Positions 4,464 to 37,528 of a DNA stretch of 37,528 bases are shown one piece after another. The translations under genes and the position numbers were made by a program. Position 1 is the first letter of the stretch. Each line of letters opens with the position of its first letter. The notes beneath the pieces are model-generated. The model had not been told where the DNA came from. It saw nothing but the letters and a program-made list of their open reading frames with translations, and made no database searches. Source of the DNA: a virus; the IMG/VR virus record IMGVR_UViG_3300028840_002577, positions 1 to 37,528 of that record, one strand, 5' to 3'.

Positions 4464-5193
4464 TCTTCATCTTCTCCATTCTTACTTTCACAAACTTTCG
4501 GCAAGCCTCTAGTTGTGTTTCTTTTATCTCGTAAACACTCGTTACTTTACATAATTTCAAAACCTCTTTTCGTAAATCCTCATGACCATTGAGGTATTTA
4601 TCGATCTCTTCAGCCTTTTCCTTGCTAACGACCGCCTCAACTTTAGGAGCTGGTGCCACACGCGCATCGGCCTGGTCCATCTCTTCCTCGGTGTAAAGAC
4701 CACTGAGGTCAGCTGGGAACGCACGTCTAAGAGCGCGAGCCTCAGCACACTTTTCAATCATCACGTGAGGCATCTTGCGCCATAGACCCTGACCGGGATT
4801 GTATTCCTGAAGAAAAGCAGTCGCACTAATCTGGTGCCACATCCCATCAGCTGTCAGCTTCTTGACATATACCTTGGCTCCCATCAAACGGTTCTTGTCA
4901 TCATAGATAAACTGCGTGTCATCACCAGGCGCATACTTGCCCGTTCTCTCTGCCACAAGACGGAAGCCATCAATACCCGTCTGAATGCACATGCGACCTC
5001 CACGCTTAATCGCGTAGATTTGCTTGGCAATTGGATCGAGATTCACCTGCTTGCATACGTGAGCAAACACCATCAGCTCATCATGTGTCAGACCAGGAGC
5101 AATGACATTCTGGATAATTTTGGCCTGTTCAGATGACCAATATTGCTCGATAGCCATCGAACTCTCCTGTTTTGCCGGAACGTTGCTAGTCAT
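4420..5193 (-). CDS. bet: Single-strand annealing protein, Bet/RecT family
   Basis: The 257-residue product carries the family core in residues 35-90: GLTxDEL, the NLDP-x-AKQIYAIKR segment, and the GIDGFRLVAERTGKY block, close to phage Bet proteins. These proteins coat single-stranded DNA made by the partner exonuclease and anneal it to a complement. A CAEARALRRAFP block near 170-182 is also typical. The C-terminus is a charged tail that is poorly conserved in the family. The start at 5193 is chosen because AGGAGG lies just upstream; the frame extends 13 codons further without a site. The start overlaps the end of the preceding membrane-protein gene by 8 bp. Confidence 0.94.
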   Translation of the reverse strand: MTSNVPAKQESSMAIEQYWSSEQAKIIQNVIAPGLTHDELMVFAHVCKQVNLDPIAKQIYAIKRGGRMCIQTGIDGFRLVAERTGKYAPGDDTQFIYDDKNRLMGAKVYVKKLTADGMWHQISATAFLQEYNPGQGLWRKMPHVMIEKCAEARALRRAFPADLSGLYTEEEMDQADARVAPAPKVEAVVSKEKAEEIDKYLNGHEDLRKEVLKLCKVTSVYEIKETQLEACRKFVKVRMEKMKNENKDEEECVSEAQ

Positions 5194-5891: not shown

Positions 5892-5920
5892 ATGATAGGG
5901 TGGTTGAGTATTTATCGCAA
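5892..5920 (-). promoter_or_regulatory. Leftward promoter for recombination operon
   Basis: On the minus strand TTGCGA (5920-5915) is followed after exactly 17 bases by TATCAT (5897-5892), a good sigma70-type promoter. Transcription would start near 5885 and run into the 65-aa gene after a leader of about 20 nt. Confidence 0.7.
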
Positions 5921-5923
5921 GGA

Positions 5924-5948
5924 AAAAGTTATCAGAGAGATAATTTTT
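5924..5948. promoter_or_regulatory. Dyad operator between divergent promoters
   Basis: AAAAGTTATC (5924-5933) and GATAATTTTT (5939-5948) are inverted arms of 10 bp with a single mismatch and a five-base centre. The dyad sits between the two -35 boxes (5915-5920 and 5953-5958), where a bound repressor could control both promoters. The product of the HTH gene at 6018 is the natural candidate. Confidence 0.6.
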
Positions 5949-5952
5949 CTTC

Positions 5953-5981
5953 TTGAACTCAAGCTATCTCTATGGTATTGT
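5953..5981 (+). promoter_or_regulatory. Rightward promoter for HTH gene
   Basis: TTGAAC (5953-5958) is separated by 17 bases from TATTGT (5976-5981), a sigma70-like pair. The predicted start near 5988 excludes upstream ATG codons at 5892 and 5982 and supports the ATG at 6018 as the real start of the HTH gene. TCTATGGTA overlaps the -10 box here and TCTATGATA overlaps the leftward -10, possibly a second operator set. Confidence 0.65.
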
Positions 5982-6017
5982 ATGAAGGAGCGAAAACTAA
6001 TCAGGTGGAATAGACGC

Positions 6018-6275
6018 ATGTTATTACGAGATTATTTAAAAACAGAAAACATCATGGTCAAGCATTTTGCTGAGATGATGGGTACTTCACCTACTTATTT
6101 ATCCCATATTTTGAAAGGAAGACGACGAGTAGGTATTGACCTTGCTAAAAAGATTGAGCAGTTAACGGATGGTAAGGTTAGTCGGGTAGAGGCCATTTAC
6201 CCTGAAGACTTTGAGGAGAAGAATGGGGAACACACCCAGATGAAATTTAACACTCATCCGAAGCCTAACCCTTAA
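6018..6275 (+). CDS. Cro/YdaS-like helix-turn-helix regulator
   Basis: The 85-residue protein has an HTH at about residues 13-36: helix VKHFAEMMG, turn, then recognition helix TSPTYLSHILKG followed by basic GRRRVG. This is the layout of small Cro-type DNA-binding proteins; the Pro/Lys C-terminal tail is unstructured. AGGTGG lies about eight bases before the ATG. It is the first gene to the right of the divergent control region and probably binds the dyad at 5924-5948. No partner CI-type repressor, antirepressor or integrase was found, so it is unclear whether it serves a lysogenic switch or only early-gene shut-off. Confidence 0.8.
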   Translation: MLLRDYLKTENIMVKHFAEMMGTSPTYLSHILKGRRRVGIDLAKKIEQLTDGKVSRVEAIYPEDFEEKNGEHTQMKFNTHPKPNP

Positions 6276-6287
6276 TATATAGCAATA
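6272..6287. repeat. TTAATATATAGCAATA motif, copy 1
   Basis: This 16-base string includes the TAA stop codon of the HTH gene and recurs identically at 7874-7889, again including a TAA stop. It contains TATATAGCAA, the complement of the TTGCTATATA found at 19140 and 32421. It lies just before a terminator hairpin. Confidence 0.55.
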
Positions 6288-6422: not shown

Positions 6423-7517
6423 ATGCAAGAATACCATAACACGCAAGAGAATACAACACAAGAATATCAATCCGTACCCTTCCTTTCCATCTGCGCAATA
6501 GCAGATTCGTACGAACACTCATTGACCATAGATAGAATACTTTACGAGATGACCGGCGACCTAGAGTCTGCTGCGATTATGTCCCGTTTGCGCTACTGGT
6601 TTTCTCCATCAAAGATAAACGGTCAGACAAGGGCCAAGTCTAGACACGATGGAAAACTATGGTTGGCGAGGAAAGATGATGAATGGGAAGAAGAAGCCTG
6701 TGTTCGTGTTAAGCAGATGCCGAGAGTAAAGAAACACCTCAAGAAGTTGGGGCTTGTGAACATTGCTATCTACAAATGGGATGGAAATCCGACCACTCAT
6801 TGGCACCTTAATGTTCAGAAGTTTACGGAGATGTACAATGAAACAATTCAAAAAATGATTTCGAAATACCCCAATGGGGAAAAAGGGGATACCCCAATGG
6901 GGAAAAAGGAAAACCCCCAACGGGGAAAGTCCATTAACAAGCATATTCCTCATGCATCTTCCTCAAGCTCGATAGAGCATATATGCGCCGAAGGCGAAAA
7001 TGCCTTTTCAGGAGAATTAGATGAATTAGGAAATGCTGTCTTCCACGAAACGTACAACCTCAAGGGTAAAGGTAAAGAAAACTACGATTCGCTCACAGAG
7101 GACCAGAAACGCGCTGTACGGCTATTACGCAATGTACCCCCTACCTCGAGTCAAGATTCCCGTTTTGAGCTCATCACGGCCTTTAATGTGGCTAGAAACA
7201 AGGGTCTTGATGGGGTTCGCAAAGCAATCATGGTCTACAAGCAGAGGTTGGAGAGAGGAGACACGCCTAATGTGATGGGCGCTTATCTTCTTAAGATCAT
7301 CAATGAAGGTCATGAACCATTGCCGGAACACGCAGATCAAAACAAACGAGCGTGGTTAGATAAGAAGAGCAAGTTTCCTCATGGGAGCTATGACGAGAGA
7401 TGGGATGGTGTGATCTTTCATTTTTATCCAAATCGGGAGTTGAACTACAGAATGTCACATGAGGTTTTTGTCACACAGCTTAGGAATGCATTCCAAGATT
7501 TGAAGGAGAGAGAATAA
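6423..7517 (+). CDS. Replication initiator-like protein
   Basis: The 364-residue protein has an N-terminal region (about 25-140) with the pattern of a winged-helix replication protein: AAIMSRLRYWF, then a DGKLWLARKDDEW segment, RVKKHLKKLGLV and HWHLN. A flexible linker at about 149-172 contains three Pro-x-Gly-Lys-type repeats, and a C-terminal helical domain follows. It is the first gene past the regulator, the place where lambdoid phages carry gene O. The linker DNA is an iteron-like array (6868-6932), so the origin may lie inside the gene. No helicase or helicase-loader gene was recognised next to it. The general role is well supported by position and form; the exact family is uncertain. 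Confidence 0.72.
   Translation: MQEYHNTQENTTQEYQSVPFLSICAIADSYEHSLTIDRILYEMTGDLESAAIMSRLRYWFSPSKINGQTRAKSRHDGKLWLARKDDEWEEEACVRVKQMPRVKKHLKKLGLVNIAIYKWDGNPTTHWHLNVQKFTEMYNETIQKMISKYPNGEKGDTPMGKKENPQRGKSINKHIPHASSSSSIEHICAEGENAFSGELDELGNAVFHETYNLKGKGKENYDSLTEDQKRAVRLLRNVPPTSSQDSRFELITAFNVARNKGLDGVRKAIMVYKQRLERGDTPNVMGAYLLKIINEGHEPLPEHADQNKRAWLDKKSKFPHGSYDERWDGVIFHFYPNRELNYRMSHEVFVTQLRNAFQDLKERE
6868..6932 (+). repeat. Iteron-like repeats inside replication gene, candidate origin
   Basis: ACCCCAATGGGGAAAAAGG occurs at 6868-6886 and again identically at 6891-6909. A third diverged copy, ACCCCCAACGGGGAAAGTCC, is at 6913-6932. The spacings are 23 and 22 bp, about two helical turns. Each copy holds a short inverted repeat CCCC-x3-GGGG and an A run. 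Repeats of this kind inside an initiator gene are the usual form of a lambda-type origin. The repeats also encode a repeated peptide, so selection could act on protein instead. Confidence 0.6.
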
Positions 7518-7553: not shown

Positions 7554-7877
7554 ATGAAACCACGTTTCACTAAACACAAGTTTGGTGCCAAGCGTACGCA
7601 GACAGACGACATCAAGTTTGACTCAAAGCTAGAGGCTAACTACTACCGCAAGCTCAAGATGGCAGTTTCCTCCGGGGAGCTGCTCTTTTTTTTGCGTCAG
7701 CCGCTCTTTGATTTAGGAGGTGGGGTGACCTACAAGGCCGACTTTGCTGAGTATTGGGCAGACGGCGAGGTAAAGTTCACAGACGTAAAGGGTGTGGAAA
7801 CGAAAGACTTCGTTATGAAAAAAAAATTGGTTGAATCACTTTACCCTATTACTATAAATGTGGTAAAAAAGGTTTAA
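7554..7877 (+). CDS. DUF1064-type nuclease (PD-(D/E)XK fold)
   Basis: The 107-residue protein matches the DUF1064 pattern: FDSKLEANYY near 22-31, a strand ending in RQPLFDL near 49-54, YKADF at 60-64, and DVKG at 77-80 followed by a KKKL helix. E27, D63 and D77-x-K79 fit the catalytic set of a restriction-endonuclease-like fold. Members are common in phage replication regions and are thought to process branched DNA, perhaps as resolvases. AAGGAG ten bases upstream supports the ATG at 7554; a TTG at 7545 is too close to that site. The gene follows the replication gene after 36 bp. Confidence 0.85.
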   Translation: MKPRFTKHKFGAKRTQTDDIKFDSKLEANYYRKLKMAVSSGELLFFLRQPLFDLGGGVTYKADFAEYWADGEVKFTDVKGVETKDFVMKKKLVESLYPITINVVKKV

Positions 7878-7889
7878 TATATAGCAATA
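7874..7889. repeat. TTAATATATAGCAATA motif, copy 2
   Basis: This is identical over 16 bases to 6272-6287 and again includes the TAA stop of the preceding gene. Here it runs directly into AGGAG, the ribosome site of the next gene, so transcripts starting at or near TATAG would have a very short leader. Confidence 0.55.
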
Positions 7890-35403: not shown

Positions 35404-37528
35404 ATGGGCATATTTGCAACGTACGACGCTTTAACTGGTGGGGGGATCATCCCCGGAAATTTGGTCACGGCAACATCCAATATCACTGACGAAGCGATTG
35501 TTCGAGGAGACGGGGGTGCAAAGGGAGTTCAAGAATCTCTTGTTTTTATTAGCGATGCTGGAGCTGTAACAGGTGCTACTCTGTTCGAGGTGGATAACCT
35601 TCGTTTAGATGGAAACGCCATCTCTTCTACAAACACCAATGGAGACATTGAGTTAACTCCCGATGGTACGGGCCAAGTGGTCATTTCTTCTCTTACTGGG
35701 ATCATGGCATCTAACGGTGCAAGTGGAATCTCAGCAAGAACATTGCAACAGCCGGCAGCTGGGATCACCATATCGAATGCCGACGGAACAGCAGGCGATC
35801 CAACATTTGCACTAGCCAATGACTTAGCAGCATTAGAAGGGTTGGCCTCTACTGCATTTGCGGTGAGGACAGGAGCCGATACTTGGGCACAGAGAACCTT
35901 GACTACTCCGGTTGACGGATTGAACGTAACCAATGGGGACGGGGTCTCTGGCAATCCTTCTTTTGCCCCAGCTAATGACCTTCTTGCCTTGGAGTCTCTT
36001 GCCTCGACTGGATATGCAGTTCGAACAGCAGCAGACACCTGGGCGCAACGCACAATCACTGCCGCATCCACAAAGATCAGCGTATCGAATGGGAACGGTG
36101 TATCTGGAAATACCGCATTAGACGTCGTAGAAGCGAATTTGACCTTAGACAATATCGGAGGTACCCTAGGGATACCAAAAGGTGGTACAGGGTCTACAAC
36201 GGCCGCTGACGCTCGTGTTGCGCTTGGACTTGAGATCGGCGTTGATGTAGAAGCATGGGATGCTGACCTCGATGCTCTTGCAGCATTGGCAACAACAGGA
36301 ATCATTTCACGTACAGGAGCCGCAACCTATGCCACCCGATCAATTACGCAGCCTGCAGCTGGAATTACTGTCTCTAACGGAGATGGGGTATCCGGAAATC
36401 CCACTCTCGCGCTTGCAAACGATTTGGCAGCTGTTGAAGGGATTGGAACAACCGGACTTGCAGTCAGAACAGCAGCAGATACCTGGACAACCCGGTCAAT
36501 CGCTGTCACAGCGTCCACTGGTCTTAGCATCTCTAACGGGGATGGAGTCTCAGGAAACCCCACTCTCTCAGGAGTAGACGCAACCTCAAGCGTTAAAGGG
36601 GTAGCATCCTTCGACGAAAATGATTTTACAGTGACATCAGGTGATGTTGCGATAGCTGAAAGAGTCAGACAACGAGTGGCAATTCCTGGTGGGTATGTTG
36701 AGAACCTAGGGATTAGTTATTCAAGCAGTACCCTATCTATTACAGGGGCAGACGGAACTGCTCTTTCAGCCACCAATCCCGGATATGTGGTCCTCCAAGA
36801 TAAGTCAACAGCTGGCCAGCTAAAGACATACGAGATAACATCTGACCAAGGATTTATCGACGCATCTGGTGCCTCAGAAATTACAGGCAATCTTTGGGGA
36901 ATGGCAACAGGGGTAGCAACAAGCACAGATATTCCATTCTTTATTTATGCCGTCACTAATGATGTTGAAGACGCTATTGCGTTCATGATCAGTCGTGTCC
37001 CAGGATTTAAGGAGTCACCAGCAGCTGCAGACATAGCCGATCCAGGCGATCCCGTAGCAGATAACCAGTGGGGATTTTTTAGCTTCGACACAGTCACAGA
37101 AGCAGACTATGAGAGCAATCCATGCCTCATGATTGGCGGATTCAGAATGAAGATGGATGCCTCTGATGACTGGACAGTTCAAACACTTGGAGCAACTGAT
37201 GGGATCGGATGTTTTCAAAATCACCGTTGGTGGCTTGTGCCTCCTGGGCAATTCGGCGCAGCAAGTGGGGGATTTTTCAGAGCAAACGGCGGAACAGCGC
37301 CAATTTTTACAACGCAAAGCTACTATTACAAGATTTACCCTTTCGAGCAGACTGCTTACCTTGCCATTGATTTTATTAACGTAAGTACCCAAGGGGTAGG
37401 GGCGGTGACGGCTAAGTTAGTCTCTCCATTTTACATCCCTCCAGCTTCTGGCAGTAGCTTTCCTAACTCAAAGGCCCAAGGAACATTTGTCGATTCATCT
37501 GCATCGAATGCCAGAAACTATGTTTCGA
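35404..37528 (+). CDS. Tail fibre with tandem repeats (5' part, continues at 1-275)
   Basis: Joined over the circle this gene encodes 751 residues. The shaft has repeats of the form G[13 protein letters not shown], then [16 protein letters not shown] and [12 protein letters not shown], at about 35750-36060 and again at 36350-36540. [15 protein letters not shown] stretch and a GGTGSTT motif lie between; both are common in fibre shafts. The last 230 or so residues are shared with the fibre at 277-2070. It has no stop in this window because the window ends inside it. The ribosome site is weak (GGGTGA). Its likely role is the main receptor-binding fibre. Confidence 0.85.
37385..37528. repeat. Terminal direct repeat, right copy
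   Basis: This is an exact copy of bases 1-144. The unique genome therefore ends at 37384. Confidence 0.95.

Follow-up and report, generated by a model that had tools for sequence, protein, structure and literature searches.

The placement of a replication origin inside the gene of its own initiator is already known from phage λ and from staphylococcal plasmids. In λ the iterons are situated in the middle of gene O, where dimers of the O protein bind them and open an AT-rich region next to them (PMC5043065; PMC7466680), and gene 18 of phages P22 and L carries other repeats within the gene (PMC8022706). In plasmid pSK41 four Rep boxes within rep are the targets of the N-terminal winged helix of Rep; the middle of the protein, encoded by the ori, is a linker that can be dispensed with, and primase is bound by the C-terminal domain (PMC5703833). 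We describe here a very probable in-gene replication origin in an uncharacterised phage, whose iteron array is, in our judgement, highly likely to be the part of the origin that is bound by the initiator encoded around it.

The sequence analysed (the window, 37,528 bases) is the single viral record IMGVR_UViG_3300028840_002577 of IMG/VR. Its two ends carry a perfect 144-bp direct repeat (1-144 is identical to 37385-37528), so the genome is probably complete at about 37.4 kb. The gene content is that of a phage and includes a P22-type portal, a large terminase, RecT and RecE-like genes and small HTH regulators. The product of 32469-33752 matches the C-terminal domain of a K1 capsule polysaccharide lyase, a similarity that suggests a capsule-degrading tail spike. 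The gene that follows the initiator gene is DUF1064/Holliday junction resolvase-like, and no gene for a P/DnaC-type helicase loader was recognised nearby or among the other early open reading frames scanned. An exact repeat, TAATATATAGCAATA, is found at 6273-6287 and 7875-7889, both intergenic, the one copy before the initiator gene and the other after the next gene; weaker copies occur elsewhere, and it is possibly a phage regulatory site. The features of the initiator gene region are collected in Table 1.

Table 1. Features of the initiator gene region (positions in the window; a dot marks features given without strand)
Feature	Position	Strand	Basis or remark
Initiator gene, 364 aa: N-terminal winged helix, array-encoded linker, low-confidence C-terminal part	6423..7517	+	PHROGs, model
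Predicted winged-helix DNA-binding domain and trailing helix, codons 38-148	6534..6866	+	AlphaFold2
Predicted recognition helix, codons 96-109, VKQMPRVKKHLKKL region	6708..6749	+	Model; staphylococcal counterpart covaries with repeat sequence
50-bp segment of lowest stability in the gene region, adjoining the array on its 5' side	6818..6867	.	98th percentile of the window's 50-bp segments
Iteron array, period 23 bp, 2.9 copies	6863..6928	.	Tandem Repeats Finder and self-match
Iteron 1 core CCCCAATGGGG	6869..6879	.	
Iteron 2 core CCCCAATGGGG	6892..6902	.	
Iteron 3 core CCCCAACGGGG	6915..6925	.	
Two tandem 13-bp copies GCATATTCCTCAT / GCATCTTCCTCAa	6941..6965	.	Tandem repeat call; score ranking

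The array contains two identical 19-mers, ACCCCAATGGGGAAAAAGG, at 6868-6886 and 6891-6909, and a diverged third unit, CCCCAACGGGGAAAG, each with the palindrome CCCC-N3-GGGG, as the initial annotation had it. That annotation gave the spacings as 23 and 22 bp; the first stands, and the second is corrected to 23, the 22 being a register slip caused by an additional C ahead of the third unit. Aligned on CCCC-N3-GGGG, the iterons start at exact 23-bp intervals. The window has 73 occurrences of CCCC and 112 of GGGG, yet the combination CCCC-N3-GGGG is present only three times in the genome, always in the array, and among only three tandem arrays that Tandem Repeats Finder reports in the window this one scores highest. 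When the initiator gene was shuffled 3000 times with its protein and codon usage fixed, the lag-23 self-match score of 29.0 was never reached (mean 8.8, maximum 22.6), and three such palindromes arose in a single shuffle of the 3000. A 23-bp period is out of frame, so the encoded peptide, YPNGEKGDTPMGKKENPQRGK, has no repeat; the codon phase shifts from copy to copy, so this is a repeat of DNA and not of peptide, and a peptide-repeat explanation of the array is ruled out. The array is thus beyond chance and unexplained by the protein, and its existence, its period and its independence of codon phase are established for this phage.

By homology the surrounding gene appears to encode an initiator. 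Its product matches phrog_6493 ("DnaD-like helicase loader") over residues 41-186 with an E value of 3.2e-12 and, more weakly, phrog_428 and phrog_9773, both of them phage initiator families; a Pfam scan of the protein found no family at E values up to 1, and a profile search by sequence for a solved structure gave nothing below E 0.1. An AlphaFold2 model built with 14 sequences has pLDDT values mostly of 90-98 over residues about 38-148, with predicted elements H47-59, E78-82, H85-92, H96-109, E112-119, E122-129 and H131-148, while residues 154 to 221 are predicted to be disordered and the array-encoded stretch has a pLDDT of about 25-50. The last confident helix ends at codon 148 (6866), directly before the first iteron core, and this predicted domain boundary, together with the predicted disorder, bears out the placement of the array in the linker-coding part of the gene. 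In a structure search with the predicted domain, the RepA-type plasmid initiator N-terminal domains 4pql (Z 8.1), 4pta (8.1), 4pt7 (7.9) and 5kbj (7.7, a Rep-DNA complex) are among the best-scoring matches. At Z about 8 and a Foldseek E of 0.01 the similarity is modest, though of the domain type expected, and the top match (Z 8.9) is an archaeal winged-helix-type protein with no known connection; the fold thus lends support and no more. A sequence search of solved structures with the single protein returned just a 34-residue match, to chain SAKe6AC.

The likeness to λ that had been proposed at the outset is supported, as regards iterons in the linker-coding part of the gene, by the sequence statistics, the predicted domain boundary and the relatives discussed below; the 23-bp period, in contrast, is closer to that of pSK41 rep than to that of λ. 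Like gene O and its lambdoid counterparts (P22, L and the Stx phages), the window has palindromic iterons in mid-gene, past the DNA-binding part, and its iterons, like those of λ, consist of a C-run, A and a G-run followed by A. The four annotated λ iterons occupy the same relative place in O, but their spacings are 20, 24 and 23 bp, and the period test applied to O gives a lag of 20 and then of 23. The window initiator also differs from O in having no Pfam Phage_rep_O match (λ O as control, 5.7e-36), and the locus differs from that of λ in that a P gene is not recognised and perhaps in the 3' flank of the array, which is not clearly AT-rich. It resembles pSK41 in its predicted winged-helix N-terminal domain and shares with it a mid-gene array that encodes a linker, an exact 23-bp period (as positive control, pSK41 rep gave a lag of 23 with a score of 59.6 at amino acids 136-165), a palindrome with an A-rich centre (GTGTC-AAAA-GGACAC in pSK41) and a short tandem repeat just 3' (15 bp in pSK41). 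Unlike the RepA_N proteins, the window initiator has no PF06970 match (pSK41 control, 2.5e-32), and unlike pSK41 the window has GC-rich site arms, has three sites rather than four, and is a phage and not a plasmid. As judged from sequence, then, the locus would work like those of λ and pSK41, with the pSK41 pitch, and by Pfam it belongs to neither family.

Relatives of the initiator are distant. The window protein as sole query found none among viral and genome contigs, and a DNA search of phages found none either. Alignment-based searches did find relatives, in the IMG/VR set and in two Dehalococcoidia MAG contigs; tblastn matched initiators of staphylococcal and Stenotrophomonas phages (best E 6e-7), and records of staphylococcal, Xanthomonas and Stenotrophomonas phages are weakly but significantly similar to the domain. 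Direct repeats of 23 bp lie just past the winged helix in nearly all phage relatives examined, and their sequences are quite different; the wider IMG/VR set, the two Dehalococcoidia contigs and the initiator L013 described below agree with this. The phrog_6493 initiators of staphylococcal phages (X2, 37 and phiMR11 type) have a homologous N-terminal domain and an in-gene array of 23-bp period at the same place, but differ from the window in an unrelated repeat sequence, in a downstream ACAGAGATTACT and in the C-terminal domain. When 16 initiators from phages or prophages, that of the window among them, were tested for period with lags that are multiples of 3 left out, the best lag was 23 in twelve and 22 in two, in each case at the end of the winged helix; in the remaining two (L049 and L052) the best lag was not significant. 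Thirteen of the 14 period-bearing initiators beat all 100 of their synonymous shuffles and in the other (L009) the score was reached once; X2 and L025 in this set belong to the same staphylococcal group and are not independent. Homology of the window initiator to initiators with arrays of the same period is thus established, and these comparisons suggest that the 23-bp site spacing is widespread. The nearest relative, L015, is 24-26% identical in protein sequence, and its array aligns with that of the window without gaps over 72 nt (50 of 72 identical, in the same codon phase), with flanks that are near random.

Scans for CCCC-N3-GGGG at a 23-bp pitch added one initiator, L013, where CCCC..GGGG repeats at 23 bp occupy 5992-6048 in the linker of an initiator-like gene with an HTH_36 domain (PF13730), a type reported for the hybrid plasmid pPR9 (PMC5703833). 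We note that L012 has three intergenic CCCCCGTGGGG repeats at 23-bp pitch (77-133) upstream of a 359-aa Rep-like open reading frame and a recombinase, and that the related phage contigs L143 (about 4971-5004) and L144 (about 2504-2537) have intergenic CACCCCAAAGGGGGTAAAATCTC repeats at 23 bp near capsid-like genes, with no initiator recognised. Two GC-rich matches from the pattern scans were set aside as low-complexity, and a scan with λ O returned only near-identical λ copies.

These comparisons bear on whether the array could be a binding site, for the initiator or for a phage repressor, that mainly regulates transcription or expression of the gene and not the start of replication. In favour are the gene for a small HTH protein immediately upstream (5892-6275) and the palindromic form of the sites, which is typical of dimeric regulators. 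The sites, however, are about 440 bp into the coding sequence rather than at a promoter, a search near the array yielded no sigma-70-like site, and initiator genes with other upstream genes have an array of this period in this position, as does pSK41 rep, in which it functions in replication; we consider regulation improbable as the main role. Less probable still, and in our view very unlikely, is that the array acts as an RNA or DNA structure (hairpins, or a G-quadruplex of the GGGG runs) in attenuation or translational pausing: each core could form a 4-bp GC stem and four or more GGGG runs lie close together, but RNA folding is only mildly better than that of shuffled sequences (z of -1.5 and -1.4), and the repeats of most relatives are AT-rich and lack G runs while retaining the 23-bp period. 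An RNA hairpin, promoter or terminator function of the array is likewise unsupported by the folding and site scans.

Synonymous sites, whose free variation in relatives had been named beforehand as the observation that would speak against an origin, are not free in the staphylococcal branch. Across a set of 23 distinct staphylococcal-type genes that align gap-free over 140 codons, the synonymous difference is 0.027 in the array codons 110-137 and 0.382 in codons 8-109, a 14-fold reduction over the array, and the lowest value in any other 28-codon block is 0.31. Amino-acid differences do not drop, and the array is as rich in them as the most variable of the other regions; low synonymous change with undiminished amino-acid change is the pattern expected of a DNA element that overlaps a coding region. 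The window phage is without a close relative, so this constraint is seen in the staphylococcal branch only. In the same genes the iteron classes ACAATGG and AGAATGG pair without exception with K72/M76 and E72/R76, respectively, of the recognition helix, which is suggestive of a repeat base that tracks the helix; the comparison is based on two groups that differ at other residues too, and since 10 of 104 positions separate both classes it is not proof. The two groups overlap in synonymous divergence (mean 0.35 within and 0.46 between). The DNA-level constraint and, so far as sequence can tell, the covariation of helix and site are thus established in relatives. That the array is a functionless product of chance or of repeat slippage in a neutral disordered linker is most unlikely, for although short repeats are common in linkers of phage proteins and the window lacks a close relative for a direct test of constraint, the 22-23-bp period is kept across very distant initiators despite differing repeat sequences, and the arrays of relatives show near-zero synonymous change.

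If the array is the initiator-binding part of an origin, the DNA beside it may contain the element that is unwound. The 13-bp repeat just 3' of the array outscores every other 70-bp stretch of the gene (166 compared), and 0.19% of the genome's stretches reach its score; this block resembles the short-repeat block of many relatives: in a comparison of 17 genes that took in the window, pSK41 and L013, a 12-15-bp tandem repeat lies 3' of the array in 12 and has no equal elsewhere in its gene. Units of 12 and 15 bp preserve the reading frame, so those repeats may be due to the peptide that they encode; the 13-bp unit of the window does not preserve it. In many phages the second block is ACAGAGATTACT, and near-invariant ACAGAGA / ACAGAGATTACT is found 4-28 bp past the array in L015, L016, L017, L022, L027, L034, L140, L141 and the staphylococcal group. 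The element is kept even across host phylum, its ACAGAGA core being retained in the Dehalococcoidia contig L141; ACAGAGATTACT is absent from the window. The 13-bp block is a candidate unwinding or single-strand element, and the segment directly 5' of the array is an alternative candidate, since the least stable segment is on that side and the 3' flank segments lie at the 30th to 93rd percentile of instability. The cumulative GC-skew minimum near 5-6 kb, one of the checks put forward initially, agrees with an origin near the array, though it coincides with a switch in gene direction and is confounded by it.

We offer only tentatively, as conceivable if somewhat doubtful, the idea that in-gene origins of winged-helix initiators in phages and RepA_N plasmids follow one common plan that has gone largely unstated so far. 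In this plan palindromic initiator sites have a fixed pitch of 22-23 bp, with sequence and codon phase both free, and no more than about 5-25 bp further on there is a second block of tandem repeats with units of 12-15 bp (in many phages the near-invariant ACAGAGATTACT, kept at the DNA level), which would be the stretch that melts or is bound as single strand. Both components are present in the window, as the 23-bp array and the 13-bp repeat. A literature search, in which the subscription literature was thinly covered, turned up in-gene origins of the lambdoid and RepA_N kinds and no report of the downstream ACAGAGATTACT, a negative result that carries little weight.

In the origin that we favour, the winged-helix domain (residues about 38-148) would bind each CCCC-N3-GGGG palindrome, probably as a dimer, and the three sites, 23 bp or about 2.2 turns apart, would assemble a nucleoprotein complex that wraps or bends the DNA. 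This complex would open adjacent DNA, on whichever side holds the unwinding element (the short-repeat block at 6941-6965 or the AT-rich 6818-6867), and by analogy with λ and pSK41 the C-terminal domain may recruit the host helicase or primase. The disordered linker would accept any peptide that the DNA sites dictate. With this array an uncharacterised phage gains a likely origin of replication, and the analysis shows that in-gene iteron origins can be recognised in raw sequence by an out-of-frame 23-bp period. In the conserved second repeat block such origins have a well-defined candidate for the element that unwinds, and the pitch common to phage and plasmid initiators of different families suggests that their complexes with DNA share one geometry.
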